DNA of 64,000 nucleotides, from positions 496,001 through 560,000 of the forward strand of contig NZ_FNFX01000002.1 in NCBI RefSeq assembly GCF_900100975.1. The letters are read 5' to 3'. Origin of the DNA: Methylophilus rhizosphaerae (GTDB lineage: Bacteria > Pseudomonadota > Gammaproteobacteria > Burkholderiales > Methylophilaceae). The position numbers were made by a program, and so were the translations under genes. This document shows positions 19,567 to 48,256 of this stretch, in pieces. The first letter of the stretch is position 1. Every line of letters starts with the position of its first letter. Below the pieces are notes generated by a model. It searched no databases. It was not told the DNA's origin and was given only the letters and a program-made list of their open reading frames with translations.

Positions 19567-21765
19567 TTACGATGCCAGTGTTCCAGCCCGCGCCGCATGC
19601 AGCTTTCGGTAGCTGTCGATCAGGCGGTGATGCCTGTCCAGGCCTTCCAGTTTCATACTGGTGGGTGTCAGGCCATGGAAGCGTATGCTGCCCTCTACTG
19701 AACCGATCACGGCGTCCATGCGCGCATTGCCAAACATCTTGCGGAAGTTGACCTCGTAATCGGCCAGCTCCAGTGCATCATCCAGCAGCACTTCCAGCAC
19801 CACATTCAAGGCCTGGTAAAACAAGCCGCGCTCCAGCGTGTTGTCGTTGTATTGCAGGAAAGCACCTACCAGGTCGTGCGCTTCTTCAAACTGTTGCAAT
19901 GCCAGATGAATCAGCAGTTTCAGCTCCATCACGGTCAGTTGCCCCCAGTCGGTGTTCTCGTCAAACTCAATACCGATCAGGGTAGCGATATCACCGTAGT
20001 CATCCAGCTCGTTGTTCTCAAGACGTTCCAATAATGCTTCCAGGCTGGTATCGTCCAGCGTATGCAGGTTCAAGATATCTTTGCGGAACAGCAATGCCTT
20101 GTTGGTGTTATCCCATACCAGGTCTTCTACTGGATACACTTCAGAATATCCCGGCACCAGGATGCGGCACGCGGTTGCGCCCAATTGGTCATACACCGCC
20201 ACATAGGCTTCTTTGCCCATTTCAGCCAGCATGCCAAACATGGTTGCCGCTTCTTCGGCATTTGCATGCTCACCTTCACCGGAGAAATCCCACTCCACAA
20301 ATTCATAATCCGCTTTGGCGCTGAAAAACCGCCACGATACGATGCCGCTGGAATCAATAAAGTGTTCAACAAAGTTATTCGGCTCGGTTACCGCTTCACT
20401 GGCGAAAGTTGGTTGCGGCAAATCATTGAGGCCTTCAAAACTGCGGCCTTGCAACAGTTCGGTCAGGCTGCGCTCCAGCGCGACTTCCAGTGTCGGGTGT
20501 GCGCCAAACGAGGCAAACACACCGCCGGTACGCGGGTTCATCAGCGTGACACACATCACCGGGTATTGGCCGCCCAGTGAGGCATCTTTCACCAGCACAG
20601 GGAAACCCTGTTCCTCCAGCCCTTTGATACCGGCCACCACACCAGGATATTTTGCCAGTACGGCCTGCGGCACATCTGGCAAGGCGATTTCACCTTCGAT
20701 AATTTCTCGTTTGACTGCACGCTCAAAAATCTCAGACAAGCATTGCACCTGCGCTTCCACCAGCGTATTGCCGGCACTCATGCCATTGCTGACAAACAGG
20801 TTTTCCACCAGGTTAGTGGGGAAGTAGACAGTTTCGCCATCCGACTGCCGCACAAACGGCAGCGAACAGATACCGCGCTCTACATTGCCGGAATTGGTAT
20901 CAATGAGGTGGTAACCACGCAACTCGCCATCCGGGTTGTAAATCTCCAGCGTGTATTCATCCAGAATCTCTTTCGGTAACGCATCCTTGCGACCAGGCTT
21001 GAACCAGCGTTCGTTCGGGTAATGCACAAATTCGGCATTGGCAATCTCTTCACCCCAGTACGAACCGGCATAAAAATGGTTGTTACTCAGCCGCTCAATA
21101 TACTCGCCCAGTGCCGAGGCCAACGCGCTTTCCTTGGTAGCCCCTTTTCCGTTAGTGAAGCACATCGGCGAATGCGCATCGCGGATATGCAGCGACCACA
21201 CATGAGGCACAATATTGCGCCACGAAGCGATCTCGATCTTGATGCCCAGCCCCGCCAGTACGCTGGTCATATTGGCGATGGTTTGCTCCAGCGGTAAGTC
21301 TTTGCCAGTGATATAAGTCTGTGATTCAGCTGTCGTATCTACAGTTAGCAAAGCCTGCGCATCGGCATCCAGGTTTGTCACTTCTTCAATGATGAAATCC
21401 GGCCCCGCCTGCACCACTTTTTTCACGGTACAGCGGTCAATCGAACGCAAAATGCCAATACGGTCTTTGTCAGAAATATCGGTTGGTAACTCAATCTGAA
21501 TCTTGAAAATCTGCTTGTAGCGGTTTTCCGGGTCAACAATATTGTTGTGAGACAGACGGATATTGTCAGTCGGGATATTGCGCGTGCTGCAATACAGCTT
21601 CACAAAATAAGCCGCACACAAGGCCGATGAAGCCAGGAAATAATCGAACGGCCCAGGCGCCGAGCCATCGCCTTTATAGCGGATAGGCTGGTCGGCAATC
21701 ACCGTGAAGTCATCAAACTTGGCTTCAAGGCGGAGCTTATCGAGAAAATTGACTTTCACTTCCAT
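19567..21765 (-). CDS. OsmC-YcaO fusion protein
   Basis: A 732-residue two-domain protein. Residues about 1-135 are an OsmC-like domain (GDGSAPGPFDYFLASSALCAAY, with the resolving-type Cys). The remainder is a full YcaO protein close to E. coli YcaO: FTNGKGATKESALASALGEY, VSNGMSAGNT, GGQYPVMCVTLMNP and GAHPTLEVALERSLTELLQG. E. coli YcaO assists RimO in beta-methylthiolation of ribosomal protein S12 and binds ATP. The fused OsmC part suggests thiol or peroxide chemistry coupled to sulfur handling. This fusion is known in proteobacteria. The frame is open eight codons upstream, but ATG 21765 begins the OsmC domain. There is no good ribosome-binding site at either start. Confidence 0.9.
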   Translation of the reverse strand: MEVKVNFLDKLRLEAKFDDFTVIADQPIRYKGDGSAPGPFDYFLASSALCAAYFVKLYCSTRNIPTDNIRLSHNNIVDPENRYKQIFKIQIELPTDISDKDRIGILRSIDRCTVKKVVQAGPDFIIEEVTNLDADAQALLTVDTTAESQTYITGKDLPLEQTIANMTSVLAGLGIKIEIASWRNIVPHVWSLHIRDAHSPMCFTNGKGATKESALASALGEYIERLSNNHFYAGSYWGEEIANAEFVHYPNERWFKPGRKDALPKEILDEYTLEIYNPDGELRGYHLIDTNSGNVERGICSLPFVRQSDGETVYFPTNLVENLFVSNGMSAGNTLVEAQVQCLSEIFERAVKREIIEGEIALPDVPQAVLAKYPGVVAGIKGLEEQGFPVLVKDASLGGQYPVMCVTLMNPRTGGVFASFGAHPTLEVALERSLTELLQGRSFEGLNDLPQPTFASEAVTEPNNFVEHFIDSSGIVSWRFFSAKADYEFVEWDFSGEGEHANAEEAATMFGMLAEMGKEAYVAVYDQLGATACRILVPGYSEVYPVEDLVWDNTNKALLFRKDILNLHTLDDTSLEALLERLENNELDDYGDIATLIGIEFDENTDWGQLTVMELKLLIHLALQQFEEAHDLVGAFLQYNDNTLERGLFYQALNVVLEVLLDDALELADYEVNFRKMFGNARMDAVIGSVEGSIRFHGLTPTSMKLEGLDRHHRLIDSYRKLHAARAGTLAS

Positions 21766-21856
21766 GGGGAAAATTCCAGAATGCGGCAAAAACGCTGAGG
21801 GCGTTATTATCCCTCAACACAGGCATGCCGCCTAAACATAAATGGCAAGTGGCTGA

Positions 21857-22875: not shown

Positions 22876-23442
22876 TTAATTAGCCTCAACATCACAAGCA
22901 AACCCCCAACGCCCTTCTTTGATATTTACATATGGTCCAGTTACAGTTGCAAGAAAATACACAGCACTTTTTGGCTCATATTTAACAGTAAAACTAAAGT
23001 CGGTAGCATTCTCTTCATTCACACCATACGTTCCAACTAAACTAGTGGAGTCTGCTCCAACAAATTCCTTCCTTACAAGGAGCTTTTTATTTTTATCACT
23101 GACTGGCGAGAAGTAATTTTGTGCGCTCGTTAGAGACGCATCATCAATAGACCATGACTCAATTACAACTTTATTCACTACAAATGGAAGAGTACCTATG
23201 TTTTTTATCGTTACGCCTAAGCTTGCTAAACATATATCTTTCGCCGGTAATCTACTCCAATTAAGAAAACCCGTTGACGCGGTTCTGATTTCCAAAGGTT
23301 TTTCTATTTTTAAATATTTGGAATAGGCCCAAGCACCCGCAATAAGTATTGCAAGTATTTCAACGATATATTTAACAACTTCCAGAAAGTTTTTAGTTTT
23401 TGAAAATAACGACTTATGAGACTGCCTACGAAAGCGCCTCAT
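22876..23442 (-). CDS. Unrecognised membrane-anchored protein in the Hxs operon
   Basis: I do not recognise this 188-residue protein. The first 20 residues are strongly basic, one transmembrane helix follows at about 24-44 (VEILAILIAGAWAYSKYL), and the rest (about 50-188) looks like a compact beta-rich domain that the positive-inside rule places in the periplasm. It has two cysteines in that domain (about 71 and 184) and an IKNIGTLPFVVNKVVIESW stretch reminiscent of an immunoglobulin-like strand pattern. Its ATG overlaps the hxsC stop (ATGA), so it is translated with the Hxs operon, and it shares the island's AT-rich codon use. It is a candidate accessory component (for example a partner or anchor for mature HxsA) by context only. 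Confidence 0.7.
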   Translation of the reverse strand: MRRFRRQSHKSLFSKTKNFLEVVKYIVEILAILIAGAWAYSKYLKIEKPLEIRTASTGFLNWSRLPAKDICLASLGVTIKNIGTLPFVVNKVVIESWSIDDASLTSAQNYFSPVSDKNKKLLVRKEFVGADSTSLVGTYGVNEENATDFSFTVKYEPKSAVYFLATVTGPYVNIKEGRWGFACDVEAN

Positions 23443-24596
23443 AAAGGTCTTATGTGATCGCTGTAGCGATGCAACAAACTAGACGAAAAGAATCCACCAC
23501 ACTCGCTTGCTCTTTTACATCCCTCACACTCAGGCGCAAATTCATTCTTCCAGTCGGAAATGGATTTTCTATAAAAAGGCAGAATATCTTGATTAATAGT
23601 ACAAAGTTGATGATTATAAACAGACGTTGTTAACCCATAGCTAACCAGAATATTTACAGCATCACTCAGGATATCCTTGTACTCAAAAGGATCTATCCAT
23701 AAGCTATCAAGGTTTGCACGAGTAAAACCCATCATTTCTAATCCCATCAGCGCAACATGATCAACAAACAATAAATTGCGCCCAATAAACTCACATAGCT
23801 CTAACAAACCTTCTATTGATTGCTTGTGAATAACCACTCTGATTTCAACTTTTTGATTCAATCTTTTAAGATTTAAAACACCAGCCAACGTCTCGTCTAA
23901 TGCACCGGAACTTTGAACTATATAATCATGTGTTGAAGGGTATGATGAATAAATTGGGATACCTACCATCATGTCAAAGTGATTGATGTCGGCATATCTT
24001 TTAGCAAAATCTATGTTTTTGAAAGATCGGCCATTAGAAAGAATATGAATGCCAGTTTGTGGTAGATGGCTTTTAGTAAACTCTAATAACTCTAAAAACT
24101 TCTCTCCAAATAGCGTGGGCTCCCCTCCAGAAAAACCGATTTCTTTGGTGTTTTTGGGTATTAACTTGATGAGATCGAAAGCTTCACTTAATAAGTAGGA
24201 ATCATCGTGATTTTTAGGAGGTTGTGAACACATTAAACAATAATGATTACATTGCTCTGTAATCATTATCGTATTGTTAGTCGCCCTTTTACGGTATAGA
24301 ACTCGTATGTGTTCTTTATTTGGTGTGATACGAACAATATCTTCATCGTTTAAATAACTAAACTCATCTGGCAAAACAGTGAAATTTTCGCCCTGAGAGA
24401 ACTCAATATCATCAGCTAGAGACTCAAACGTAATGTAATGCGAAAATCCCTTTGGTGCATTCTTGGTCCTGGTAATGAATGCTTTATCGCTTCTTAAAAC
24501 TAGGGGTAAGTTTGGATTTGAGCTTAGCGCAAATAATTTTGCTTTTTCAGAAGTAAGTTGATGAACCTGGATTACCTTCCCCCCGAGTTTGATCAT
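23439..24596 (-). CDS. hxsC: His-Xaa-Ser system radical SAM maturase HxsC
   Basis: A 385-residue radical SAM enzyme. The 4Fe-4S/SAM motif CxxxCxxC is at 116-123 (EQCNHYCLMCSQPP) and is followed by the SAM-binding GFSGGEPTLF segment. The C-terminus has a further cysteine cluster (C357, C360, C366 in CEGCKRASECGGFF), suggesting an auxiliary cluster. The FVDHVALMGLEMMGF stretch and the pairing with HxsB, HxsD and a His-Xaa-Ser protein fit the HxsC family. It should act in the cytoplasm on the HxsA precursor. The chemistry is not established. The start overlaps the hxsB stop (ATGA), and the stop overlaps the next gene the same way. Confidence 0.88.
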   Translation of the reverse strand: MIKLGGKVIQVHQLTSEKAKLFALSSNPNLPLVLRSDKAFITRTKNAPKGFSHYITFESLADDIEFSQGENFTVLPDEFSYLNDEDIVRITPNKEHIRVLYRKRATNNTIMITEQCNHYCLMCSQPPKNHDDSYLLSEAFDLIKLIPKNTKEIGFSGGEPTLFGEKFLELLEFTKSHLPQTGIHILSNGRSFKNIDFAKRYADINHFDMMVGIPIYSSYPSTHDYIVQSSGALDETLAGVLNLKRLNQKVEIRVVIHKQSIEGLLELCEFIGRNLLFVDHVALMGLEMMGFTRANLDSLWIDPFEYKDILSDAVNILVSYGLTTSVYNHQLCTINQDILPFYRKSISDWKNEFAPECEGCKRASECGGFFSSSLLHRYSDHIRPL

Positions 24597-26050
24597 CTGT
24601 TAGCCCATCCAAGGAATAGTTTTTTTGTATCAGAATCATTTTCCATGAGGGTAATTAAGTGTTTAAAAATACTCATGTTCTTTTTGCAAAACTCTGACTC
24701 AGGCTTCCGCCCCAAAAAATCCTTATGTATTGCATGGTGATAAACTGGCTCGGAACCACAGTATGGCTCAAATGCACATTCAGAACACATTGGAGCACTC
24801 AGCGTAAAAGACTCTTCAATTGCATCAAGTAATTTGTCTGAGAGAATTATATCTTCGTAGGAGTCAGACAAAATATTACCTAATTCAAAAGTCTTATCCC
24901 CCATTTCAGCAAGCATTCTGCTTTCATCAGAAGCGTAAACTTTTCCGTCATAATTAAAAACAATTGCTGCAATTCCAATACCAGCAGGGTTCATTAAATC
25001 AACATATCCAGACTCTTGGGCAGTAAGAATTTTCTTCAAAATTAAACTGGAATAATACTCTGAGAACTCAACTCCATTTCGATTCAGTTCAATGATGTAA
25101 TCAAGGCCAGCTTTATAAAACTGTAACCATCGCTCGGTGTTGTAAGCCATAAATTTTTTTGTTTTTATCGCAAAACCGTACGGTGACAGTGGCCTTAAAA
25201 AAATACCCTTAAATCCTAGCTTTAAGTATTCGTCGATAATGTCTCTAACTTTATCTAGGCTCGACTCTGTTGTTGTCATCAAAGCGGAAACTTGATCATA
25301 GCCAAGCCGGTTTCTAGCTCGCTCTAATCCGGCAATGAATCTTTGGTAGCTATCTTTGTTTGGTCTTGGTCTATTTGAATTATGTAGAACCTCAGGACCA
25401 TCTAGTGAAGTTGAAAGCTGAATTTTATGTAACTTGCAAAAGTCTAGAATTTCATCAGTTATTAACGAAAGGGTTGTGGCAATTACAAAAGCAAGATCTC
25501 TATTTACAATCTGATTTCTAATCTCAGCAGATTCAACAATATATTTGATAAGTTCAAAATTCAGTAATGGCTCGCCGCCTTGAAATTCAATCTTTATCGC
25601 TGGAGATGGAGACTTGAATACAAAATCAAGAGATTTGTCAGCCATTTCCTTAGTCATATCAAATGAAGATTTATCTTCTGACTGCCTGGAAACTTGGCAA
25701 TATGGACAACTATGATCGCAGCGAAGTGTAACAACAAAGATATGTAGATTAGTAAATTGAGAAAGCCTGGATAATTTTGTTCTCAGTTTCAAAGCCAACA
25801 ATTCAACTGGTGACTTTTCTTTAGGTAATCTGATGAAGTGCTTTGACCTTAATTGAGAATATAAGCGGTTCGTAACATTTAGCTTCCGATGAACCAATCC
25901 ATCTAAATCATCCCGATCAATGAGCAGATATTCGCCAACAAGATTAGTGATGATATAACTTTCGTCATCGAATCTATCAAACTTAAAGGGTAACAACTCA
26001 TAAGATGAGTCTTCTGCAGAATAGCTTTCAAGCCCTTTAAACTTACTCAA
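24593..26050 (-). CDS. hxsB: His-Xaa-Ser system radical SAM maturase HxsB
   Basis: A 485-residue radical SAM peptide maturase. The N-terminal region (YELLPFKFDRF, then YIITNLVGEYLLI) matches the recognition region expected of HxsB proteins. The CxxxCxxC motif is C111, C115, C118 (LRCDHSCPYCQVS). QGGEPLLNFELI and TSLDGP are typical of anSME/SPASM-type maturases, and the C-terminal cysteines (C422, C425, C431, C455) indicate auxiliary 4Fe-4S binding. The start is an unusual TTG that overlaps the end of hxsD by 8 bp. No better ATG or GTG preserves the conserved N-terminus, so translation is probably coupled. Confidence 0.9.
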   Translation of the reverse strand: MSKFKGLESYSAEDSSYELLPFKFDRFDDESYIITNLVGEYLLIDRDDLDGLVHRKLNVTNRLYSQLRSKHFIRLPKEKSPVELLALKLRTKLSRLSQFTNLHIFVVTLRCDHSCPYCQVSRQSEDKSSFDMTKEMADKSLDFVFKSPSPAIKIEFQGGEPLLNFELIKYIVESAEIRNQIVNRDLAFVIATTLSLITDEILDFCKLHKIQLSTSLDGPEVLHNSNRPRPNKDSYQRFIAGLERARNRLGYDQVSALMTTTESSLDKVRDIIDEYLKLGFKGIFLRPLSPYGFAIKTKKFMAYNTERWLQFYKAGLDYIIELNRNGVEFSEYYSSLILKKILTAQESGYVDLMNPAGIGIAAIVFNYDGKVYASDESRMLAEMGDKTFELGNILSDSYEDIILSDKLLDAIEESFTLSAPMCSECAFEPYCGSEPVYHHAIHKDFLGRKPESEFCKKNMSIFKHLITLMENDSDTKKLFLGWANR

Positions 26051-26345
26051 TTTCTTGCAAATCCGTATTCAAGAAAGTGGCACTCAGTATTAAATTTCTT
26101 ACAGTCTCAGTTTCTTTGGAAATCAATTGGCGTAAGTGCTGATCAAGAATTTCCTTCTTAAAATCTGCCTCTATTTTTTTGAGGTGTAGTTCTGAGTGAT
26201 CCCCATCAAAGGTGATACGGCAAAGTATCGATTTATCATTTAACTCAAAATCAACCGAAAGTTTATTGATAAATCGATATGCCGCTTTCTGTATTGTTTC
26301 AACAGAATAAACACGCTCATCAAATGTGAGCGTCGTGGTGTTCAT
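26043..26345 (-). CDS. hxsD: His-Xaa-Ser system protein HxsD
   Basis: About 100 residues, soluble, no signal peptide. The C-terminal half (FKKEILDQHLRQLISKETETVRNLIL, read as two motifs) has the pattern of the HxsD family, whose members always accompany the HxsB/HxsC pair and may act as a precursor-recognition or scaffold subunit. That role is inferred. A GTG lying directly against the hxsA stop (26351) would add two residues. ATG 26345 is taken as start, and neither has a strong ribosome-binding site, which suggests coupling to hxsA. Its end overlaps the hxsB TTG. Confidence 0.85.
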   Translation of the reverse strand: MNTTTLTFDERVYSVETIQKAAYRFINKLSVDFELNDKSILCRITFDGDHSELHLKKIEADFKKEILDQHLRQLISKETETVRNLILSATFLNTDLQEIE

Positions 26346-26351
26346 ACTCAC

Positions 26352-26633
26352 TTAATAACCTGATGAGTGTGAACGATGTGAGGAGTGTGAGCTATGTGAG
26401 GAATGTGAGTAGTGATCAGCATAAAAAACACCGTCACTATTAGGTTTTAAAATGAACTTCAGTGCAGTTTTGTCACTAAAGTCGAATTTATTTACTTGCC
26501 CACTTTCAACTTCGAGCAAGTTAGACTTGGACTGATCATCTATTGAAACACTCTCAATAGATTTAGCATTTGATTGATTTGTTGTTAATGCGCTTGCTAA
26601 CACCGCTAAAGGTAAAAGATATTTTCTTTTCAT
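26352..26633 (-). CDS. hxsA: His-Xaa-Ser repeat protein HxsA (probable modified substrate)
   Basis: A 93-residue precursor-like protein. Residues 1-23 look like a Sec signal peptide (MKRKYLLPLAVLASALTTNQ, cleavage near Ala-23). A ~45-residue linker (DKTALKFILKPNSDGVFYA at its end) follows, and the C-terminus is six consecutive His-Xaa-Ser units (residues 74-91) ending in Gly-Tyr. His-Xaa-Ser proteins are the presumed substrates of HxsB and HxsC. The histidines could be cross-linked or modified, or could bind metal after modification. It is the first gene of the operon, preceded by a long AT-rich region. The Xaa residues (Tyr, Ser, Ser, Ser, Arg, Ser) are dominated by Ser. Confidence 0.9.
   Translation of the reverse strand: MKRKYLLPLAVLASALTTNQSNAKSIESVSIDDQSKSNLLEVESGQVNKFDFSDKTALKFILKPNSDGVFYADHYSHSSHSSHSSHRSHSSGY
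26361..26414 (-). repeat. Six 9-bp units encoding His-Xaa-Ser
   Basis: The coding strand reads CAY-NNN-TCA six times. The third codon is TCA in every unit, the His codon varies between CAC and CAT, and the middle codon varies freely (TAC, TCC, AGC, TCC, CGT, TCA). The constancy of His and final Ser with a variable middle position suggests selection on the motif and not only recent slippage. Confidence 0.9.
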
Positions 26634-27038
26634 GATTTAGCTCCCCTATTAATATTGGTATTTTTCAAGAAAATTATCATGGAATTTATATAGGCGTCCA
26701 TAAACCATCATTTCAAATAAGGTTAAAACAATGTAAAAAATCGTATGCCAAAAAACTTAGCTTGTTTCTTTAAAAGTTGTTTCTAATAAATCAATAAGTT
26801 AGAAATAACTCAGCATCATTTATTTCTATCAAATAAAAATAAATGTTTAGGCATAAATACAAATGCTAGTTAGCTGAGAAATCGAAGTTAATTTATGCAA
26901 AACCCCTATTAAAGTATTGAATTAGATAGCAAAACAGCACCTTCTTTGTATATACATGCACAAAAATCTCTGTTATGGTAGCAATTATTAGAAAAATTAC
27001 GGTGTTTTACACCGATAGAGATTTAGGGTGGCGTGCCA
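26634..27038. other. AT-rich intergenic region upstream of hxsA and the 69-residue gene
   Basis: About 400 bp without a credible gene, clearly richer in A and T than the flanking chromosome. It must contain the hxsA promoter (leftward) and the promoter of the small rightward gene at 27039. I see many TATAAT-like and TTTATTT-like strings but no single convincing promoter, no tRNA, and no insertion-sequence ends or obvious direct repeats that would explain the island. Confidence 0.5.
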
Positions 27039-33330: not shown

Positions 33331-35781
33331 TTACCAGCGGTAAGATGCTGACACGTTGATGGTACGACCAGCCGCATAATTGCAGCCAGTGACGCCTGTC
33401 AGGCACACAGAGGGAATATATTCCCGGTCTGCTAGATTAAAGGCGTTCATGGTATAGCGCCATGACCCTAGGTCATAACTGACTCGAGCATCAAACAAAG
33501 TGTAATCTGGTACGGCCAGAATACTGTTGGCTGCATTGCCAGGCTTTTCTGCCACATACCGCACCCCACCGCCAACCAGTAAACCGGATAATCCCCAGCC
33601 ATCCAGTTTGTAATCCAGCCAAGCCGATGCTGCATGGTAGGGAATGCCGGATAAACGACTATCGACTTCTGCGGCAATATTGCTTTTCGTGATACGCGCA
33701 TCGGTATAGTTATAGGCAGCGATCAGGTTAAAATTCTCGCCAATCCTGGTTTTGGCTTCCAGTTCCAGGCCATGTGAGCGTGCCTCGCCAGTCTGGATCG
33801 AAAAGGTACTGTCTGTAGGGTCAGGTGTGAGGACATTTTTCCTGGTCAGCTCGTAAACAGCAGCCGTCAGCATAATATTGCTCTCAGGAGGCTGGTAGCG
33901 CACACCGATCTCATACTGCTTACCTTCAGTCGGCTTGAAACGTGCATCTTGACGATCCCGCCCACTGGTAGGTTCGAACGATTCGCTGTAACTAAAATAC
34001 GGAGCCAAACCATTTTCTGCCAGGTATACCAGCCCGGCACGCGCAGTAAACGCGCGCTCTTTTTCATTGGTATTATCTGCCGGCGAATGCAGGCTCAGTG
34101 ATTCCAGGCGTACCTCATCCTGCCGCCCTCCTAACAGCACTACCCATTTGTCAGCAATTTTCATCTGATCCTGCAGATAAAAACCTGTGCGATCCTGATT
34201 GGTACGAAATTGCCTCCAGGGTAAGGTATTAAATGCCGCCCCATAAACCGGGTTATAGACATCAATGGTGGCCAGGTTGCCTCGCTCGCGGTCACTGGCA
34301 TGTTTAGACTTGGTGTAATCCACCCCACCCAGTAGCGTGTGTTGCACAAACCCCGTTTGTAGTTTGTATTCCAGATTGGTATCTGTCGTGAAGATAGAGG
34401 TATCGTCTTCAAAAAGACGCGCCTGTCGATTCAAACGACGCTGGGCAGTATCTGCCCACCCTCCCATCAGGAAATACTCGAAATTCAGCTCAGAGTGATA
34501 AGAGCGTACGCCATGACGCACCCTTAACTGGTCAGAGAAGGCATGCTCAAACAAGTAGCCAATTGTTGTAGTAGTGTTGTCGTAGGTGTCATGATCCGGC
34601 TCACCCAGATAACGACCACGCGAAATCTTGCCATTGGGATTAGCTTGCAAAGTACCCGCTACCGGCAAGGTGCCCGGGTCACTGTTCCGCATACGCTGAT
34701 AGCTGGCAAGCAATGTCAATGAAGTGTGATCTGTGGGACGCCAAGTCAATGCCGGGGCAATATAAATCCTGTCATCCTGGCTGTGATCGATATAAGTATC
34801 GCTTTTGCGTACCAATGAAGTCAGGCGATATAACAATGTCTCGTCATCATTCAGGCTACCGGTGAAATCAGCAGACAATTGCTTACGGTCAAAACTGCCG
34901 ACCTCTGCATTGACCTCCCGCATAGGCGTCGCCTGGGGCCGCTTGGACACCGTATTAATAATGCCACCCGGGGCCGCCGCACCATACAGCACAGAAGAGG
35001 GGCCCTTCAGGACTTCTATCCGCTCAAGACCATAAGGCTCCTGCTTGCCGTTATAGATGTTGCTCATAAACCGCATACCATCACGATAATAGCTCCCAAA
35101 TTCGGAGTCTGCCTGAAATCCCCGCAAGTAAAAAGAATCAGCAATAGCTGGATTCATAGCGACAGTACCTGATGCCAATCCAGAGGTATATCCCAGCGCG
35201 TCTTGCAGTGATTGAGCATTTAAATTTCGCATCTGATCTGCAGTAACCACCGAAATCGACTGCGGTGTCTCAATGATAGGTGTATCTGTTTTAGTCGCAG
35301 TTGCACTGCGTTTGGCAACATAGCCTTTAACCGGCCCAGTGGCTATCTCTGCACCTTGATCGCTATTGCCTACCACTTGAACTTCTTTCATGGTTTGCAT
35401 ATCAGCCTGCCCTTTAGTAACCGGAAGACTTTTCTGTAAGGAGAACACCCCTTTACTGGTCTCAATTGCCTGCAAACCAGTCTCTGTTAGTAAAGTCTCA
35501 AAGCCTTGCTGTATTGTGTAATTTCCACTTAACGAGCTACTTGTCTTGCCATCAACCAAGGCAGGCGGTAATGTAATACTAATGCCAGACAGCCTGGCAA
35601 ATTCGCTTAAAGCCTGCTCCAAAGGCCCCGATTTAATTTGGTAACTAGTTGTAGCAGGCTTGGCATAATCTTCAGCCAATGCTGTCGGCATGAGTACCAT
35701 TGACGTACTGCCAAGTGCCATTAATAGAAATGCGGCCTGTATTGCTTTGCGTAGATGATAACGATGAGTGTGTTGCTGCAT
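33331..35781 (-). CDS. TonB-dependent siderophore receptor with STN signalling domain
   Basis: An 816-residue outer-membrane transducer. In order: signal peptide (to about residue 36), an STN domain (about 45-115, TSYQIKSGPLEQALSEFARL), a linker with GPVKGYVAKRSATATKTDTP, the plug (IETPQSISVVTADQM; ERIEVLKGPSSVLYG; GGIINTVSKRP) and a beta-barrel ending in aromatic ASYRW. The plug and linker resemble hydroxamate receptors of the FoxA/FhuE/FpvA type; the ligand is unproven. The STN domain should signal to the FecR/FecI pair just upstream (35893-37373). A strong AGGGAAACTC ribosome-binding site precedes the ATG. The PepSY gene follows. Confidence 0.92.
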   Translation of the reverse strand: MQQHTHRYHLRKAIQAAFLLMALGSTSMVLMPTALAEDYAKPATTSYQIKSGPLEQALSEFARLSGISITLPPALVDGKTSSSLSGNYTIQQGFETLLTETGLQAIETSKGVFSLQKSLPVTKGQADMQTMKEVQVVGNSDQGAEIATGPVKGYVAKRSATATKTDTPIIETPQSISVVTADQMRNLNAQSLQDALGYTSGLASGTVAMNPAIADSFYLRGFQADSEFGSYYRDGMRFMSNIYNGKQEPYGLERIEVLKGPSSVLYGAAAPGGIINTVSKRPQATPMREVNAEVGSFDRKQLSADFTGSLNDDETLLYRLTSLVRKSDTYIDHSQDDRIYIAPALTWRPTDHTSLTLLASYQRMRNSDPGTLPVAGTLQANPNGKISRGRYLGEPDHDTYDNTTTTIGYLFEHAFSDQLRVRHGVRSYHSELNFEYFLMGGWADTAQRRLNRQARLFEDDTSIFTTDTNLEYKLQTGFVQHTLLGGVDYTKSKHASDRERGNLATIDVYNPVYGAAFNTLPWRQFRTNQDRTGFYLQDQMKIADKWVVLLGGRQDEVRLESLSLHSPADNTNEKERAFTARAGLVYLAENGLAPYFSYSESFEPTSGRDRQDARFKPTEGKQYEIGVRYQPPESNIMLTAAVYELTRKNVLTPDPTDSTFSIQTGEARSHGLELEAKTRIGENFNLIAAYNYTDARITKSNIAAEVDSRLSGIPYHAASAWLDYKLDGWGLSGLLVGGGVRYVAEKPGNAANSILAVPDYTLFDARVSYDLGSWRYTMNAFNLADREYIPSVCLTGVTGCNYAAGRTINVSASYRW

Positions 35782-35892
35782 GAGTTTCCCTTTTTATAAG
35801 CCTGTGAGCATGAGATATGCATCTCCCTACTCACTTCACACGCCAACTTTCTAAAAGGGACAAAAAAGAATGATTTTTTTATAAAAGCCAGG

Positions 35893-36840
35893 TTAAGCCT
35901 CAAGCGCATCCAGCGTGATCCAGTAGCGCGTGAGGTAGCTCACTTTTACCGGCAGGATAGTTGGCAAACTGGCAAATACCTCATCAGTATTTTTCAACTG
36001 GAAAGCCCCAGATATTTTTAAATCTGCCACGCCAGGCGCGCAGCGTACAATTCCGTTGCGATATCTTGCCATCTCGGTGGCAAACTCGGCCAGGCGCATT
36101 TCGCGCACATGTAAAATACCACGCGTCCAGCTATCCATATGAGAATCAGCAACGACCGGTGTCGCTATTGCCTGCTGGTCAAAATATGTCTGCCAGCCCG
36201 CGTTGATCACACGCCGCTGACCGCGGCTGTTGATGACTTCAACCGCACCGTCAAGTACGACAAGATGAACATCGTCCGCACGCTGCCGGACAGTGAAGCG
36301 GGTGCCTAATGGACGTAATTCACCGTAGCGGGTTGCAATCACCAACGGTCTTTTCAACGGATCATGATGACCGGTCTGGACCATGATTTCGCCCGCTTCC
36401 AGCACAATCAGGCGTTGCATCTGATCAAATCTGGTATTCAGCCCAGTCGAGGTATTCAGGTGCATTTCGGTCCCATCCGCCAGTTGGACCCTCTGCTGCT
36501 CGCCGGTATGCGTACGGTATTCTGCACGCAACATCCGCGCTGGCTCACTTTGCCAGGTTTGCCATCCTGCAGTGCCCGTCGTCAGTAATATTGCCAGTGC
36601 CTTGATTGCACGGCGGCGTCCGGTTTGATGGCTGTTTTGCAATGTCGAATATGCCAGGTTGCCTGGCAAGCGACTCATTTTCTGGCTGACTTCAACGGCT
36701 CGCTGCCAGGCTATTTCATGTGTCGCATCCGCTTCCCGCCAGGCGCGACAGGCTGCGTGATCCGCATGCGTTGTGTCTGATTCCTGCAAGCGGAAAAACC
36801 ACTCGGCTGCCTGCAGGGCTGTTTTATCGCTCACACTCAT
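35893..36840 (-). CDS. FecR-type anti-sigma regulator
   Basis: A 315-residue inner-membrane regulator. It has an N-terminal cytoplasmic DUF4880 domain (AAEWFFRLQESDTTH...WQRAVE), one transmembrane segment near 83-98 (ALAILLTTGTAGWQTW), a periplasmic FecR domain (RVQLADGTEMHLNTSTG; LRPLGTRFTV) and a C-terminal secretin-like part that contacts the receptor's STN domain (ISGAFQLKNTDEVF). The frame opens earlier, but ATG 36840 overlaps the sigma gene stop as ATGA, and that is taken as start. It pairs with FecI at 36837-37373 and the receptor at 33331. Confidence 0.9.
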   Translation of the reverse strand: MSVSDKTALQAAEWFFRLQESDTTHADHAACRAWREADATHEIAWQRAVEVSQKMSRLPGNLAYSTLQNSHQTGRRRAIKALAILLTTGTAGWQTWQSEPARMLRAEYRTHTGEQQRVQLADGTEMHLNTSTGLNTRFDQMQRLIVLEAGEIMVQTGHHDPLKRPLVIATRYGELRPLGTRFTVRQRADDVHLVVLDGAVEVINSRGQRRVINAGWQTYFDQQAIATPVVADSHMDSWTRGILHVREMRLAEFATEMARYRNGIVRCAPGVADLKISGAFQLKNTDEVFASLPTILPVKVSYLTRYWITLDALEA

Positions 36841-37373
36841 GACATCAACATAATGCATTGCGCCATGGCTTGCACCATATAGCGCTTGACGCTACGCTCG
36901 CTGACGTTGAGTTGAGCGGCAATGTCGGCGTAGGTCATGCCCTCGAACTGCGCCAGCAAAAAGGCAGAACGCACTTTGGCTGGCAAACCATCCAGCATGT
37001 GATCTATTTGTTGCAAGGTTTCCAGAATAATCAGCTTCTGTTCAGTAGATGGAATGGCTGATGCAGGCATCAGTGCCAGTGAATCCAGATAGGCCTGCTC
37101 CAGTGCACGGCGCCGATAAAGATTAGCGACTAACCGTTTGGCGACGATGGTCAGGTAAGCGCGTGGTTCCTGTAACTGCCAGTCTGGCGTTTTCTCAGCC
37201 ACATGCTCTGGCGCATTGAGAATCCGCATAAAGGTATCCTGGGCGATATCGGCCGCATCGGCGGTATGGCCAAGTCTGCGCTGCAACCAGTTTTGCAGCC
37301 AATGATGGTGATGTATATAAAGGCGTTCAATAGCCTGCTGGACGACAAATTCGTTTGCTGACATTTTTGCCAT
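36837..37373 (-). CDS. FecI-type ECF sigma factor
   Basis: A 178-residue iron-starvation sigma factor. Region 2 is near residues 12-80 (ERLYIHHHHWLQNWLQRRLG; DIAQDTFMRILNAPE) and region 4 near 120-170 (LPAKVRSAFLLAQFEGMTYADIAAQLNVSERSVKRYM). It should transcribe the receptor-PepSY operon at 32038-35781 after a signal through FecR. A Fur-box-like site lies five bases upstream of the start codon, so the sigma gene itself should be iron-repressed. An internal ATG (codon 4) is an alternative start. Confidence 0.92.
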   Translation of the reverse strand: MAKMSANEFVVQQAIERLYIHHHHWLQNWLQRRLGHTADAADIAQDTFMRILNAPEHVAEKTPDWQLQEPRAYLTIVAKRLVANLYRRRALEQAYLDSLALMPASAIPSTEQKLIILETLQQIDHMLDGLPAKVRSAFLLAQFEGMTYADIAAQLNVSERSVKRYMVQAMAQCIMLMS

Positions 37374-37377
37374 ACTT

Positions 37378-37396
37378 GCAAATGATAATTGTTCTC
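37378..37396. promoter_or_regulatory. Fur-box-like site before the 36837 sigma gene
   Basis: GCAAATGATAATTGTTCTC matches 14 of 19 positions of the classical Fur box GATAATGATAATCATTATC. It abuts the sigma factor start, and that location plus similar sites at two other sigma genes in this window supports it. Confidence 0.65.
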
Positions 37397-37555
37397 ATTT
37401 TATCATGCACCAGCCATTTTTATATCTACACTGTTGAATAAAAAGAGGTATCCCACAGCAAGCTAATCAATCCGCGTTAAGAGTTAAGGTCCGGTGCTGC
37501 GTAATTCAGGGAAACGACAAGAACTAACGCGAACACCAGACTCCCACATGCGGTA

Positions 37556-39883
37556 CTACCAGGTATAACTTAGTGTCCCGATCACTGTGCGCGGTTGGGC
37601 AACATAGCAATATCCTTGGGTGCAAATGCTATACCGGTTATCAGCCAGGTTATTGGCATTCAAGGCAAATCGCCAGTGCGGGTCAAGCTGGTAATGCGCC
37701 GCCATATCAAACAGGGTGACTTTGCTATTGGTATAAGTATTGGCGTCATCGCCATAACTGCCACCGATATGACGCACACCTGCCCCCAGCCCCAGGCCTT
37801 GCAACATTCCTGAAGGCAGGGTGTAATCGGCCCACAATGACAGGTTATTTTTAGGCTGGCCTGATTGCAAATTGTCGTAGTTCTCATCCTGCCGTCCGGT
37901 AAATTTCGGCATCAGGAAAGTATAGGCTGCGGTCAGGTTCACACCAGAATCCAGGCTGGTTTTAGCCTCGACTTCAAAACCGCGCGAGCGCACTTCACCC
38001 GCCTGCATCTGGCTGGCTGGCCCGGTGTTTAACACCACATTTTGCTGGGTAATCTGGAACACGGATGCGGTTAGCATCAGGTTTAGATCCTCTGGCTGAT
38101 ATTTAATACCAGCCTCAATCTGCCGGCCTGTGCTGGGTTTAAAGAAACCACCGGTAGCATTCCGGCCTAGCAGCGGGACAAAAGAGGTGGCATAGCTGAC
38201 ATAAGGTGTCAGGCCATTTGCCAGTTGATAACCCAGCCCTACCCGGCCACTGAATTTCTTGAAGCTGCGATCATCACTTTCGGCTGTTGTTTCCTGTGAA
38301 GTATCGGCCCAGTCATGGCGCCCGCCTACAGTCAATATCCATTGCTGCCATTTGATCTGGTCCTGCGCATATACGCCAACCTGGTTCATGCGGTATTGGT
38401 AGGGGTCATCCAGTACTGGCGCGCTGATAGGCTGCGCGCCGTAATTAAGTGTGGCCAAATCCAGGTCGGGGGCCGCGCCGAACCCCATCTTGCCGTTATT
38501 GATCGACCGGGTCCAGTCCAGCCCGAATAACACGGTATGGCTCAAATCACCCGTGTTGCCCTGCCATTGGGCCTGGTTATCAATCGCGTAAGTATGCAGG
38601 CGCTCCACCAGTTGACCGGTACTACGATTGGCGACATTATTGACTGTATCTATCGCATCAATTTGTGTATAGCGAGCATTCATATCCACTCGCCCGGTAC
38701 GCACATTCTGGCGCAATGTCCAGTGTTCGTTCAGTAAATGCTCAAACAGATAGCCAATCTGGTATTGCTCCTGGGTGAAATTCTGGAATGCCGGATCACC
38801 GCTCAGCAAATGCTTATCCACATGTCCATCAGCATCATTAAAGTAGGAAGAGTTACCAACAGTGGTATCTTTCTGATAATGCGTCAGGATCGTTAATGTG
38901 GTTTTATCATTCGGCTGCCAGGTCAATGCCGGTGCAATATACGTTCTGTCATCATGCGCACCTTTGATCGGGCTGTCACTGTCCCGGTACAGGCCAGTCA
39001 GTCGATAAGCAAGCGTATTGTCATTATCCAGTGCGCCGGTGGTATCAAAGCGCACCTGCTGGCGATCATAGTTACCGATCTGCACATCTGCCTGATGCTT
39101 CGCTTCAAACTGTGGGCGCTTGCTCACAATATTCACCAGGCCACTGGGTTCGGATTGCCCATACAGCACTGAACTTGGCCCTTTCAGGATATCAATACGC
39201 TCTGCCGAATAAGGTTCCTCCTTGTAGAGTGAAAAATTACTGCTGAGCTGGCGCAGGCCGTCCCTGTACATGCCGGTGTAGGTCATATCAAAGCCGCGGA
39301 TACTGAACGAATCAAAACGCGGATCAAAACCAAATGCACCCACACGCACGCCTGGGGTATAGGCAACCGCATCAGTCAATGTTTGCACATTACGTGCATT
39401 CATTTCATCCCGTGTCACTACCGAAATCGATTGCGGAACTTCCACGACTGGCGTATCGGTTTTGCTGCCACTGGCACTACGCTTGGCAACATAACCTTTT
39501 ACCGGGCCATAAGCCGTTTCGGCCATACGATTGGTAGAAATACTGACTTCCGGCAATGCTTGCGGCTCAGCTTTGCCTTCCGGTTTAGATGGCACGGGCA
39601 CCACGGTATAACCACCATCAGTGGTTTCTTTCACGGCTAACCCGCTACCTGCCAATAACTTCTCCAGTGCCTGGCGTGTCGTGTAATCACCCTGCAATGG
39701 GGTTGAGACTTTTTGACTGGTAACGCTAGTAGAGAAAATAATACGTTCGCCAGATTGATGCGCCAAGGCATTCAATGCTTTATCTAATGGTTGGGCCGGA
39801 ATATTGAGTTCAACCGCTTGCGCAGCGGAAACGAAGTTAGCCAGCAGCAAGGCTATTAAAGTGGGCTTACAAGAGAGAGGCAT
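37556..39883 (-). CDS. TonB-dependent siderophore receptor with STN domain
   Basis: A 775-residue transducer-type receptor. Signal peptide (to about 23), STN domain (about 25-95, VELNIPAQPLDKALNALAHQ), the GPVKGYVAKRSASGSKTDTP linker shared with two other receptors here, plug (VEVPQSISVVTRDEM; ERIDILKGPSSVLYG; VNIVSKRPQF) and a barrel ending in LSYTW. It resembles hydroxamate siderophore receptors; the ligand is unknown. No sigma/anti-sigma pair is adjacent on its upstream side. The nearest are 36837-37373 downstream and 42640-44143 further upstream, so it may be driven by one of those. Confidence 0.91.
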   Translation of the reverse strand: MPLSCKPTLIALLLANFVSAAQAVELNIPAQPLDKALNALAHQSGERIIFSTSVTSQKVSTPLQGDYTTRQALEKLLAGSGLAVKETTDGGYTVVPVPSKPEGKAEPQALPEVSISTNRMAETAYGPVKGYVAKRSASGSKTDTPVVEVPQSISVVTRDEMNARNVQTLTDAVAYTPGVRVGAFGFDPRFDSFSIRGFDMTYTGMYRDGLRQLSSNFSLYKEEPYSAERIDILKGPSSVLYGQSEPSGLVNIVSKRPQFEAKHQADVQIGNYDRQQVRFDTTGALDNDNTLAYRLTGLYRDSDSPIKGAHDDRTYIAPALTWQPNDKTTLTILTHYQKDTTVGNSSYFNDADGHVDKHLLSGDPAFQNFTQEQYQIGYLFEHLLNEHWTLRQNVRTGRVDMNARYTQIDAIDTVNNVANRSTGQLVERLHTYAIDNQAQWQGNTGDLSHTVLFGLDWTRSINNGKMGFGAAPDLDLATLNYGAQPISAPVLDDPYQYRMNQVGVYAQDQIKWQQWILTVGGRHDWADTSQETTAESDDRSFKKFSGRVGLGYQLANGLTPYVSYATSFVPLLGRNATGGFFKPSTGRQIEAGIKYQPEDLNLMLTASVFQITQQNVVLNTGPASQMQAGEVRSRGFEVEAKTSLDSGVNLTAAYTFLMPKFTGRQDENYDNLQSGQPKNNLSLWADYTLPSGMLQGLGLGAGVRHIGGSYGDDANTYTNSKVTLFDMAAHYQLDPHWRFALNANNLADNRYSICTQGYCYVAQPRTVIGTLSYTW

Positions 39884-40064
39884 GATACTTTCCAGTCAGA
39901 GAATTATTTGCTTACACTGGTATGTCGTTTGGGCCGAAAAAATTGTTGAGGTCCCTGTAATAATTTTTTATGTATTGGTTAACACACCCTCCATACTGAC
40001 CCTTTCGTTTTACTGCCACGTCATTTTGCTTGAATGCATGCAATACATCCACGCGAGCGCTAAC

Positions 40065-40098
40065 AAAAAGCCCGTCAATATATTTGACGGGCTTTTTT
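40065..40098 (-). terminator. Rho-independent terminator between two receptor genes
   Basis: AAAAAGCCCGTCAA, a TATA loop and TTTGACGGGCTTTTTTT form a 13-bp stem with A and T tracts. It ends the leftward receptor gene at 40135-42564, so the receptor at 37556 must have its own promoter in 39884-40064. Confidence 0.92.
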
Positions 40099-40134
40099 TG
40101 ACTAACGTCATTAACTACTTAAGACAGCTTAAAA

Positions 40135-42564
40135 TTACCAGGTATAAGTCGCGGTAGCGATGGCAGAGCGACGGGAGCCGATCCAGCAGTCGCCACGCGT
40201 AATACATGTGGAAACATATTCTTTGTCTGCCAGGTTGCTGGCATTCAGCGCATAACGCCAGTTACCGGCATCCAGGCTGATCATCGCATCAAACAGTGTC
40301 ACATCCGGCGTCTTGATAATATGGGTAGAGTTCCAGGATTCACCGACATAACGCACACCTAAACCAGCCTTGAATCCGTTAACATCGCCAATCGAAAAAC
40401 GTTTTGTCAGCCAGGCTGAGGCAAGATGCTTGGGAATAGCTTCTACCTGCTGCCCTTTTTCAGCAGGATTATCTGTCACGCCATATTTTGCCTGCGTGAA
40501 GCTGTAAGAGCCGAGGACCTCCCACCGATCACCGAACTTGGTCGCACCTTCTACTTCCAGGCCACGCGATATGATTTTGCCTTTCTGCGTATAGCGGTCA
40601 CCCATGACATAAATCGGCCGGTTCTGGTCTTCGAGGTCATACGCCGCAATGGTGAAACGCGTCGGTGAATTTTCTGGCATATACTTAAGGCCAACTTCCC
40701 ATTGCTTGCCTTCCTGCGGTTTCAGGTAACCGCCACTGACCGACAAATTCGTCAACGGCAGGAACGATTCCGCATAACTGACATACGGTGCCCAACCATT
40801 ATCAAACACATAGTTCAGGCCATAGCGCTGGGTGGTTTTATAGCTTTCCTGCGGCACCGTCCCTTCGCTTTTGTTTTCGGCCTTGTCACGACGCAAGCCG
40901 GCGGTTAACACCCAGTGCCGGTCAAACTTGACCTGGTCCTGCACATACAAACCGGTTTGTATCATGCGTGCCTCGGCCAATGGCGTCAATGGCGCGACAG
41001 AATCAATATTGCCGTAAACAGGGTTGTAAATATCAATCATGTTAGCCGTACCATCATCATATCCAGCCATCCCGGTTTTACGGAAGTGCGCATAATCCAG
41101 CCCGACCAGCACGGTGTGAAAGGTATTGCCAAGATCAAATTGTGCCCTGGCATTGGTATCCACATTCATCGTGTATGACTGGGTTTTGGAAACGTCATAG
41201 TAGCGCGGCAAGGTGCGCTGGTCTGCGGTGGGGAATGGGTTCACAGATGGATCAAATGTAAACGAATTCAAATACAGGGAGCTGTAATTGTTGCGGCTCT
41301 TGGTCCAGCGCATGTTCTGGTGCACCGACCAGGTATCATTAAACTGATGGTCAAGGATCCAGCCCAGATGGGTAGACTCGCTGGTGTACTGGTCAAAGCC
41401 TGGTTCGCCCAGGTAATTGTGGTAGGGAATCTTGCCGTTCGGATTCGGTTTGAGCACGCCATACACGGGTAAGAACTGTGGCGTAGGCAAGGTATCATCC
41501 AGCTGGTAGCGTGCTATCAACGTCAGGCTGGTTTTGTCACTGGGCTTCCAGGTCAAAGATGGCGCAAACAATGTACGCTTCTGGAAAGCATGATCCACCT
41601 GGGTATCTGTATCCTTGCCTACCATGACCAACCGGTAAAATAGCGTATCACTATCCGCCACCGGGCCGGTAAAATCCGCCTGAATCTGTTTGAAATCGTA
41701 ATTGCCCAGTGACACCCCGATTTCACGGCGCGCTTCCGTTAATGGCCGTTTACTGACCAGGTTCAGGATACCGCCGACACCGCCTTGCCCATATAAAGTG
41801 GATGCAGGTCCGCGTAACACCTCAACCCGTTCCATCATGTAAGGGTCAGGCCGGATAGTTTCTGAATAATAGGTATTGATCTGGCGTAAACCGTCCAGAT
41901 ATTGCACTGCATCCATACCACGAATGGCATATCCATCAGAGCGGGAATCCATGCCATATTGATCGGCAGCGACGCCGGCACTGTATCGCAAAGCCTCCTG
42001 AATCGACATGGCCCTCTGGTCTGTTATCTGATCGGCAGTGATAACGGAAATGGATTGTGGTGTCTCCACAATCGGCGTATCGGTTTTGGTTGCGGTTGCC
42101 GTACGTTTGGCGACATATCCGCTCACCGGCCCATAAGCGTGTTCTTTTTCCATTTTGGCGTTGACGCTCACTTCAGGCAAAACATCGTCACCCCTGGCTG
42201 CAGGAGATTTGGCAGAGACCGCTCTTAACTGATAGCCTTTTCCCATTTGTACAACCTCTAACCCGCTGCCGAGAAGTAATTGGTCCAGGACCTGGTGAAG
42301 GGTCATCTGTCCTTTCAGTGCAGGGGCTTTTTTACCATTGGTCAGTGCGGCATCCGCCGTCAGGTTCACCCCGGTTTTCAGGGCGATTTGTGTCAATGCG
42401 GTCGATAACGGGCCAGCAGCAATATCAAAGCTATAGCTGGCCTCGGCCGTTTGCGCATAAGCGGTAGGCACGCCCAGGCTGGCATTCGTCATGAGTGCTG
42501 CTGCAACGGCAACGCGTACCGTCGTGGCGAACATTCGACTGGAAAACAAAGAAGGTTCTTGCAT
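40135..42564 (-). CDS. TonB-dependent siderophore receptor with STN domain
   Basis: An 809-residue transducer-type receptor. Signal peptide ending near TAYAQ (about 38), STN domain (YSFDIAAGPLSTALTQIALK, about 43-115), the linker GPVSGYVAKRTATATKTDTP, plug (VETPQSISVITADQI; ERVEVLRGPASTLYG) and a barrel ending in TATYTW. It is likely for a hydroxamate-type siderophore by resemblance to FhuE/FoxA relatives. GGAGCC precedes the ATG. It is directly downstream of the FecI/FecR pair at 42640-44143, its probable regulators, and followed by a strong terminator. Confidence 0.92.
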   Translation of the reverse strand: MQEPSLFSSRMFATTVRVAVAAALMTNASLGVPTAYAQTAEASYSFDIAAGPLSTALTQIALKTGVNLTADAALTNGKKAPALKGQMTLHQVLDQLLLGSGLEVVQMGKGYQLRAVSAKSPAARGDDVLPEVSVNAKMEKEHAYGPVSGYVAKRTATATKTDTPIVETPQSISVITADQITDQRAMSIQEALRYSAGVAADQYGMDSRSDGYAIRGMDAVQYLDGLRQINTYYSETIRPDPYMMERVEVLRGPASTLYGQGGVGGILNLVSKRPLTEARREIGVSLGNYDFKQIQADFTGPVADSDTLFYRLVMVGKDTDTQVDHAFQKRTLFAPSLTWKPSDKTSLTLIARYQLDDTLPTPQFLPVYGVLKPNPNGKIPYHNYLGEPGFDQYTSESTHLGWILDHQFNDTWSVHQNMRWTKSRNNYSSLYLNSFTFDPSVNPFPTADQRTLPRYYDVSKTQSYTMNVDTNARAQFDLGNTFHTVLVGLDYAHFRKTGMAGYDDGTANMIDIYNPVYGNIDSVAPLTPLAEARMIQTGLYVQDQVKFDRHWVLTAGLRRDKAENKSEGTVPQESYKTTQRYGLNYVFDNGWAPYVSYAESFLPLTNLSVSGGYLKPQEGKQWEVGLKYMPENSPTRFTIAAYDLEDQNRPIYVMGDRYTQKGKIISRGLEVEGATKFGDRWEVLGSYSFTQAKYGVTDNPAEKGQQVEAIPKHLASAWLTKRFSIGDVNGFKAGLGVRYVGESWNSTHIIKTPDVTLFDAMISLDAGNWRYALNASNLADKEYVSTCITRGDCWIGSRRSAIATATYTW

Positions 42565-42639
42565 AACATCAGGCTCCAGATTAGATCTTTCAGATACTTA
42601 CACCTGATATGCCGGACTACTTGCAAAAAAGGGAACTGT

Positions 42640-43620: not shown

Positions 43621-43624
43621 GTTT

Positions 43625-44143: not shown

Positions 44144-44153
44144 GATATCCAAA

Positions 44154-44172
44154 TATAATGATAACCATTCTC
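44154..44172. promoter_or_regulatory. Fur-box-like site before the 43625 sigma gene
   Basis: TATAATGATAACCATTCTC matches 16 of 19 positions of the classical Fur box, 10 bases upstream of the chosen start codon. Confidence 0.75.
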
Positions 44173-44235
44173 ATTATATATATCATGCCGGGTGAGCACA
44201 AGAAACAGGCGGCGTTTCAAAAGCGACTGCCACAC

Positions 44236-44257: not shown

Positions 44258-44271
44258 CTATTAATGGCTGG

Positions 44272-48213: not shown

Positions 48214-48256
48214 GGCACACGCTTTCGAAAACGGATGCAGCACAGACAGCGCATGA

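Follow-up and report, generated by a model that had tools for sequence, protein, structure and literature searches.

What does an operon make that encodes two different radical S-adenosylmethionine (SAM) enzymes next to a small exported protein ending in six His-Xaa-Ser units? This question is raised by a locus in a 64,000-nucleotide stretch of the Methylophilus rhizosphaerae genome (assembly GCF_900100975.1, contig NZ_FNFX01000002.1, positions 496,001 to 560,000), which is called the window in the following and to which all coordinates refer. The operon is a genuine member of the His-Xaa-Ser system, and we put the probability that its product is a modified, exported member of the ribosomally synthesized and post-translationally modified peptides (RiPPs) at about 0.85. 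A first-pass annotation, made from the sequence alone, had called the family known and its chemistry and role open. Literature found by the system's name agreed: no characterised product or chemistry was found in the literature searched, a coverage mostly outside subscription papers. One paper describes the precursors as "putatively" reliant on HxsB and HxsC (PMC9062424), and another lists hxsA-D among genes of Pseudomonas aeruginosa isolates (PMC8446631). The family is known; new are an HxsB without ligands for auxiliary cluster I (Aux I), a signal peptide that may double as leader, a fifth gene and a variable insertion site.

Operon and precursor

The five genes lie on the minus strand and run without gaps from 26633 down to 22876 in the order hxsA2, hxsD, hxsB, hxsC and a gene of 188 codons. 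The genes hxsA2 and hxsD directly abut, hxsD and hxsB overlap by 8 bp, and hxsB and hxsC by 4 bp, which agrees with the first-pass statement that all genes overlap or abut. A further overlap of 4 bp (ATGA) joins hxsC to the fifth gene, so that the operon probably runs on to 22876. The features are as follows (aa, amino acids).

26634..27032, no strand assigned: stretch upstream of hxsA2 with 28% GC, presumably holding the promoter (composition; alignment with two relatives)
26352..26633, minus strand: hxsA2, precursor, 93 aa (NF038296, 88.2 bits, cut-off 48)
26361..26414, minus strand: hxsA2 core, six tandem His-x-Ser, then Gly-Tyr and stop (translation, shuffle test, relatives)
26043..26351, minus strand: hxsD, 102 aa, GTG start, ferredoxin-like in the model (TIGR03976, 61.1 bits, cut-off 50)
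24593..26050, minus strand: hxsB, 485 aa, TTG start, radical SAM (TIGR03978, 646.6 bits, cut-off 370)
25697..25720, minus strand: hxsB CxxxCxxC (C111, C115, C118), invariant in 43/43
24926..24928, minus strand: hxsB Asp375, aligned with anSME Asp-277, invariant in 43/43
24686..24787, minus strand: hxsB cysteines of auxiliary cluster II (Aux II; C422, C425, C431, C455), invariant in 43/43
23439..24596, minus strand: hxsC, 385 aa, second radical SAM maturase (TIGR03977, 389.7 bits, cut-off 267.9)
24228..24251, minus strand: hxsC CxxxCxxC (C116, C120, C123), invariant in 45/45
23499..23603, minus strand: hxsC auxiliary cysteines (C332, C357, C360, C366), invariant in 45/45
22876..23442, minus strand: fifth gene, 188 aa (ATGA overlap with hxsC)

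HxsA2, HxsD, HxsB and HxsC all scored above the curated NCBIfam cut-offs. The family-model search that had been proposed as a check thus placed the enzymes in their own families and not in unrelated ones; the precursor passed the HxsA2 model and failed the long-HxsA model TIGR03979 (30.6 bits, cut-off 121.65). The call of a complete hxsA-hxsD-hxsB-hxsC operon was right as to the family, but the precursor gene is hxsA2 and the fifth gene had been overlooked. Compared with the system as modelled (TIGR03976-TIGR03979, NF038296), the window has the same four components in one operon; it differs by the fifth gene, found in 3/150 family genomes, and by a short precursor that lacks a C-terminal domain. 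A second hxs copy in the genome was rejected: the hxsB and hxsD profiles (TIGR03978, TIGR03976) each gave a single match above cut-off, and two weak TIGR03978 matches elsewhere lay far below it. Further precursors may still exist in other parts of the genome.

The precursor starts with a Sec-type signal, assigned by eye (MKRKYLLPLAVLASALTTNQSNA), and ends in HYS-HSS-HSS-HSS-HRS-HSS-GY, which bears out the six units of the first-pass annotation. It contains no Cys. When its residues were shuffled 200,000 times, no tandem HxS run exceeded three units, a length reached in 27 shuffles, compared with six in the real protein. We then compared 46 operons, a set from which L070 (duplicate of L004) and L071 (duplicate of L005) had been removed and in which the near-duplicates L052/L054/L055, L061/L062, L051/L102 and window/L004/L069 were kept. 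An HxsA-type open reading frame (ORF) with at least three tandem HxS units was present on the operon strand in 44 of them, with runs of 5-8 units, which marks the triplet as the conserved element. In L073 the operon is cut by the contig end. The middle residue is diverse and varies over ten residues: of 259 triplets, 120 have Ser at Xaa, 68 have Arg, 25 Tyr and 24 Ala, and the remaining 22 have some other residue.

Two precursor layouts exist. In the short layout, 24 precursors end at most 15 residues past the core and are located before hxsB. In the long layout, 20 precursors carry tails of 112-155 residues; 18 of these end downstream of the hxsC start, and two, on Bacteroidota plasmids, are located before hxsD. 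A Pfam search with two of the long tails identified PG_binding_1 in L052 (1.5e-5) and gave no match for L007, and the L050, L106 and L107 precursors are annotated as peptidoglycan-binding. The window precursor, which ends two residues past the core, lacks such a C-terminal peptidoglycan-binding domain. Since neither the window precursor nor 21/24 short precursors have a Cys after residue 20, the targets left are His, Ser and Xaa. In the three short precursors with such a Cys (L063, L104, L108) it lies at the core end or downstream of it. These three and L112, with Cys at or past the end of the HxS units as in ...HCSGYSYC, may form a subgroup with an added disulphide or thioether.

Cysteine sets of HxsB and HxsC

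Both co-encoded radical SAM enzymes carry the CxxxCxxC motif seen in the first pass (residues 111-118 of HxsB, 116-123 of HxsC). The "extra C-terminal cysteine clusters" reported there are present as well, but amount to one auxiliary set of four Cys per enzyme. In HxsB seven Cys columns were invariant in 43/43 homologues, namely the motif and C422, C425, C431 and C455. This set covers 43 of the 46 operons and excludes L068 and L099 (below 440 aa) and L073 (contig without HxsB). The hxsB frames of L068 (6207-7298, 363 aa) and L099 (5996-6898, 300 aa) are short and represent broken genes or assembly errors.

A profile alignment placed C422, C425, C431 and C455 on Cys-317, 320, 326 and 348 of anSME, which are named as Aux II ligands in PMC5491770. 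The Aux II pattern CxxCx5C...C of SPASM enzymes is kept in 43/43 HxsB sequences. The anSME Aux I positions 255, 261, 276 and 330 align with Tyr349, Gly359, Ser374 and Pro435, and none of the 43 homologues has Cys at any of the four. Two of these positions lie in or beside a loop (349-358) that has low confidence in the HxsB model. Even a shifted alignment could not restore Aux I, as no more than two further Cys fall in the aligned columns 330-485. The only other HxsB column with at least 30% Cys is C205 (22/43). According to PMC5491770, three of the four Aux I Cys are retained in the SPASM enzymes under comparison there, for which it is called very unlikely that Aux I would be lost and Aux II kept. 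Judged from its aligned sequence, HxsB is an exception to this rule, and its C-terminal domain is SPASM-like without Aux I ligands. HxsB passed neither the Pfam SPASM model PF13186 (16 vs 21.5 bits) nor the anSME model TIGR03942 (75 vs 349.45 bits).

Next to Ser374, Asp375 is invariant (43/43) and occupies the position of anSME Asp-277. We take anSME Asp-277 to be the proposed catalytic base of that enzyme. No mention of this was found in PMC5682303.

The HxsB structure model (predicted local distance difference test, pLDDT, 86) matched anSME best (4k38; Z 32.9, root-mean-square deviation (rmsd) 3.1, 355 aligned). The match to 5wgg, presumably CteB, had Z 31.9, rmsd 4.2 and 409 aligned residues and started at residue 20; that to TigE (8vpo) had Z 25.2 and started at residue 13. 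Both alignments extend into the N-terminal domain; identity is 16-17%, the precursors are others and the window precursor is Cys-free. Residues 22-69 have the order E-E-E-H-H within the larger model, which would fit an N-terminal domain resembling a RiPP recognition element (RRE).

In HxsC seven Cys were invariant in 45/45 sequences (all operons except L073), namely CxxxCxxC and a single auxiliary set; no further column had at least 30% Cys. Its profile matched solved enzymes over the radical SAM core only (best 3.1e-7). Pfam detected no cobalamin domain in HxsB or HxsC. HxsD was modelled from 10 sequences as a ferredoxin-like fold (pLDDT 83) of the order E-H-E-E-H-H. By sequence the best solved relative had an E value of 0.059, Foldseek gave no match at 0.001, and the best VIA-align match (Z 8.8) reflects a common arrangement, with no PqqD or RRE description among the matches listed.

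Candidate chemistry of the His-x-Ser triplets

We propose that HxsA2 is a RiPP precursor that would be modified in the cytoplasm and then exported. Its Sec signal peptide would serve as recognition leader too. The precursor would be held by the putative RRE at the N-terminus of HxsB, and HxsD would act as docking partner. HxsB and HxsC would then act on the six triplets by radical chemistry: a 5'-deoxyadenosyl radical would abstract a hydrogen from the Ser C-beta, which would be bonded to an imidazole carbon of the His two residues before, with loss of two hydrogens per unit, and the second electron would exit via the single auxiliary cluster. Sec would export the modified tail, leaving short HxsA2 free in the periplasm and long HxsA held by its C-terminal domain. 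An oxidative change within the HxS units is probable; that it is a C-C cross-link from His(i) to Ser(i+2) is our leading but tentative proposal, at less than even odds.

Cross-links between His and Ser are favoured, with Ser oxidation second, because the spacing of His i and Ser i+2 is that of three-residue cyclophanes. For these, PMC11002830 reports C2(His)-Cb(Ala), C2(His)-Cb(Arg) and C4(Phe)-Cb(Ser) bonds. The triceptide systems HaaB, YhhB and MscB thus share the i/i+2 spacing with hxs, and His and Ser are each known partners (PMC11002830). They differ in that HxsB lies far under the listed family cut-offs and has no Aux I Cys, and in that hxs has a second radical SAM enzyme and a Sec-type signal in place of a leader. 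The closest alignments of HxsB, to anSME, which acts on the C-beta of Ser or Cys, and to 5wgg, are consistent with a cross-link, as is the invariant Asp375 at the place of anSME Asp-277.

Across the operons the precursor N-termini resemble Sec signals. A strict motif in them ([KRGS][FY]LxP; KYLLP in the window) was found in 12/21 short precursors vs 0/46 control signal-like N-termini, and a looser one in 36/62 precursors vs 5/25 controls, which suggests that the signal peptide doubles as leader. The HxsA2 set leaves out L104, L107 and L110 (over-long starts), and the strict count additionally L004, L069 and L102. A signal peptide also replaces the classical leader of bufferins, which are likewise exported, and preliminary results on a signal peptide serving as leader are mentioned in PMC12452194. 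Bufferins, which chelate copper, are Cys-based and made by multinuclear non-heme iron-dependent oxidases (MNIO), whereas hxs is His/Ser-based and uses radical SAM enzymes.

Several points weigh against the proposed product and chemistry. The signal motifs were picked after the sequences had been viewed, and the rows are related. No HxS precursor was found among the operon-strand ORFs of L048. Among the 25 of 63 families listed, HxsB stayed under the cut-offs of the cyclophane families (YhhB 72/445, GrrM/OscB 52.5/310, AmcB 50.3/425, FxsB 40.5/370), and its best outside model was the thioether enzyme PapB (127.6 vs 340). Furthermore, HxsB is without Aux I, a cluster retained at least partly by the characterised SPASM enzymes for peptides that PMC5491770 compares, and the use of two enzymes for one kind of unit has no explanation. 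The product of the His-Xaa-Ser system is so far a prediction from sequence.

The first alternative, which we consider unlikely, is that HxsB acts like anSME and oxidises the core Ser to formylglycine or a further product, HxsC being responsible for a second site, and that no cross-link is formed. A Ser is present in every unit, and anSME shares with HxsB the fold (best structural match of the model), the Aux II ligands, an invariant Asp at position 277, the proposed base, and a Ser target. A His-Ser cross-link and conversion of Ser to formylglycine each remove two hydrogens per unit, and for this reason mass alone cannot tell them apart. What distinguishes HxsB from anSME is the absence of Aux I Cys, the added N-terminal domain, a presumed repeat-peptide substrate and a score far under the anSME cut-off. 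PMC5491770 describes two auxiliary clusters with eight Cys in anSME, as opposed to the one four-Cys set of HxsB. Moreover, Ser oxidation leaves the equal invariance of His and Ser unexplained.

To a similar degree improbable is another modification, such as epimerisation, methylation, a C-O or C-N bond, or a change at Xaa. All of these are within the range of radical SAM peptide enzymes, and the two enzymes may differ in task. Epimerases require a donor Cys outside the clusters, and structures of an EpeE C223A variant are listed; HxsB has no conserved non-cluster Cys (C205 in about half of the sequences), and HxsC none reaching 30%. The ten residues seen at Xaa speak against a change at this position, and the absence of a cobalamin domain by Pfam counts against this group of modifications too. 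Thioether cross-links are the chemistry of the families closest to HxsB outside its own: PapB, SCIFF and CcpM are among its best outside scores in the matches listed, and the structural match to 5wgg, an entry whose title names thioether bond formation, is close. They are nevertheless extremely improbable, as Cys follows residue 20 in only three of 24 short precursors and there at or behind the core end; for the Cys-free window precursor they are ruled out, unless HxsB and HxsC have a second protein as substrate.

Insertion site, spread and candidate roles

The cassette appears foreign by composition, with a GC content of 36.5% compared with 50.8% over the whole window; of all stretches of its size, 1.7% were equally AT-rich, including ones that overlap the cassette. 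The nearest named relative found was Methylophilus sp. 13 (L004), with 96% identity in HxsB. HxsC exceeded its cut-off in 5/150 genomes of the family, 5/399 of the order, 15/398 of the phylum and 5/240 of another class, counts that include the genome of the window or the centre genome. At 1e-20, 428 plasmid records carried an HxsC relative, 329 of them from Klebsiella and 343 predicted to be conjugative. Two phage records matched HxsC at 1e-10. Viral contigs yielded 18 loci for HxsC and 19 for HxsB, the contigs being partly shared.

The three genomes with the fifth gene share a flank: a 71-aa gene, a ferredoxin gene and nrdB, with hxs always to the same side of them. It is adjacent to these genes in the window and separated by 1.6 kb (L069) or 4.0 kb (L070) of other genes in the relatives. 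In four hxs-free relatives in which both flanks were located, the site from rlmF to these three genes holds different, mostly AT-rich cargo (L166 6451-7841, L167 1792-5081, L168 1666-4702, L169 4584-8611). This comprises a toxin-antitoxin-like pair recognised by eye, a protein with pentapeptide repeats whose N-terminal domain is of NACHT type (NNH3, 4.7e-30), a protein of 771 aa that matched neither Pfam nor PADLOC, and AbiU/AIPR (AbiU 2.8e-148). In six further stretches (L170-L175), of which L172 is a carrier and L175 covers only 3 kb, no second flank was detected close to rlmF.

The minus-strand ORF 19567-21789 encodes 740 aa that appear, by eye, to join an OsmC-like to a YcaO domain; in many of the Methylophilus stretches that were compared, a relative of it is a neighbour of rlmF. 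Elsewhere in the window, Pfam marks a run of FecI, FecR and TonB-dependent receptor genes at 33331-46707 and at 61370-63808 on the minus strand. The receptors lie at 33331-35781, 37556-39883, 40135-42564, 44272-46707 and 61370-63808, FecR at 35893-36858 and 42640-43701, and the sigma factor at 36837-37373; ORFs of similar size occur at 43625-44152 and 46748-48243.

By eye, the fifth protein has a Lys/Arg-rich start, one hydrophobic segment and then a domain that would be located outside the cytoplasm, and it likely has one membrane segment. It matched nothing in NCBIfam, Pfam or PADLOC. Of the 150 family genomes three have its gene; all three carry hxs and belong to one genus. The remaining two carriers in the family, G417 and G467, lack it. 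Plasmids gave no match at 0.001. A general partnership of the fifth gene with hxs was therefore rejected. Other operons have other genes after hxsC, encoding DUF3251 (L057), SNase with Excalibur (L049) or CoiA_N (L103), and in L048 and L104 proteins without Pfam match; several of the products look exported by eye. Genes of nuclease type stand just after hxsC in several plasmid operons (L049 8200-8916, SNase/Excalibur; L103 8180-9034, CoiA_N), and L047 (8570-9106, annotated as thermonuclease) and L046 (8925-9884, HNH protein) have such neighbours on the opposite strand.

As to the role of the product, a row of fixed imidazoles would suggest metal binding. The imidazole density and the analogy with noursin and bufferins make a function in metal handling our first, though distinctly uncertain, choice; noursin is a copper-binding RiPP that depends on its own His cross-link, as stated in PMC10206099.

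A rival role, compatible with any chemistry and in our view doubtful, is defence or competition, in which the exported modified peptide and the variable partner encoded after hxsC would act at the envelope to keep phages or plasmids out. It would fit the AbiU, NACHT-type, toxin-antitoxin-like and 771-aa cargo of the rlmF-nrdB site and the abundance of plasmid records. Furthermore, at least 4/20 genomic hxs loci had a strong PADLOC match within 4 kb: PDC-S65 in L056 (5.9e-215), AriA in L059 (1.3e-62), RT_II-A in L064 (2.3e-130) and GajA in L074 (2.7e-235). This is a lower bound, based on the best 25 of 215 families and on 16/122 neighbours scanned singly. In total 215 PADLOC families matched among 122 neighbours from the 20 loci vs 12 among 117 control proteins from the same contigs, a figure inflated by single ATPases or reverse transcriptases that match dozens of models; 122/124 ORFs were scanned, two at hxsD positions having been dropped. 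Control proteins match too (mad3 in 3/117, best 2.5e-41; one scanned singly, 7.4e-29, is an ABC transporter), 4 vs 0 of 20 would not reach significance at 0.05, and variable sites gather every kind of cargo. An enrichment of defence genes around hxs is at best suggested. No known defence protein is among the five; the matches of HxsB and HxsC to PADLOC were weak ones to viperin only (best 1.2e-10), which is expected of radical SAM enzymes. The most specific version, a mobile envelope-defence cassette, is less probable still. Here, the SPASM-type enzyme without Aux I and HxsC would weld the six triplets into a rigid imidazole row, and the exported product would, with the variable membrane or exported partner after hxsC, block entry of phages or plasmids at the periplasm or cell wall.

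The literature without a product stands against a wide spread of the system, with 428 plasmid records and 15/398 phylum genomes. As an enzyme with Aux II only, HxsB could reveal what Aux I does in SPASM chemistry, and the precursor, which has no Cys and six nearly identical triplets, offers a clean readout. The variable insertion site makes a role in metal handling or defence testable through the five-gene block as a unit.

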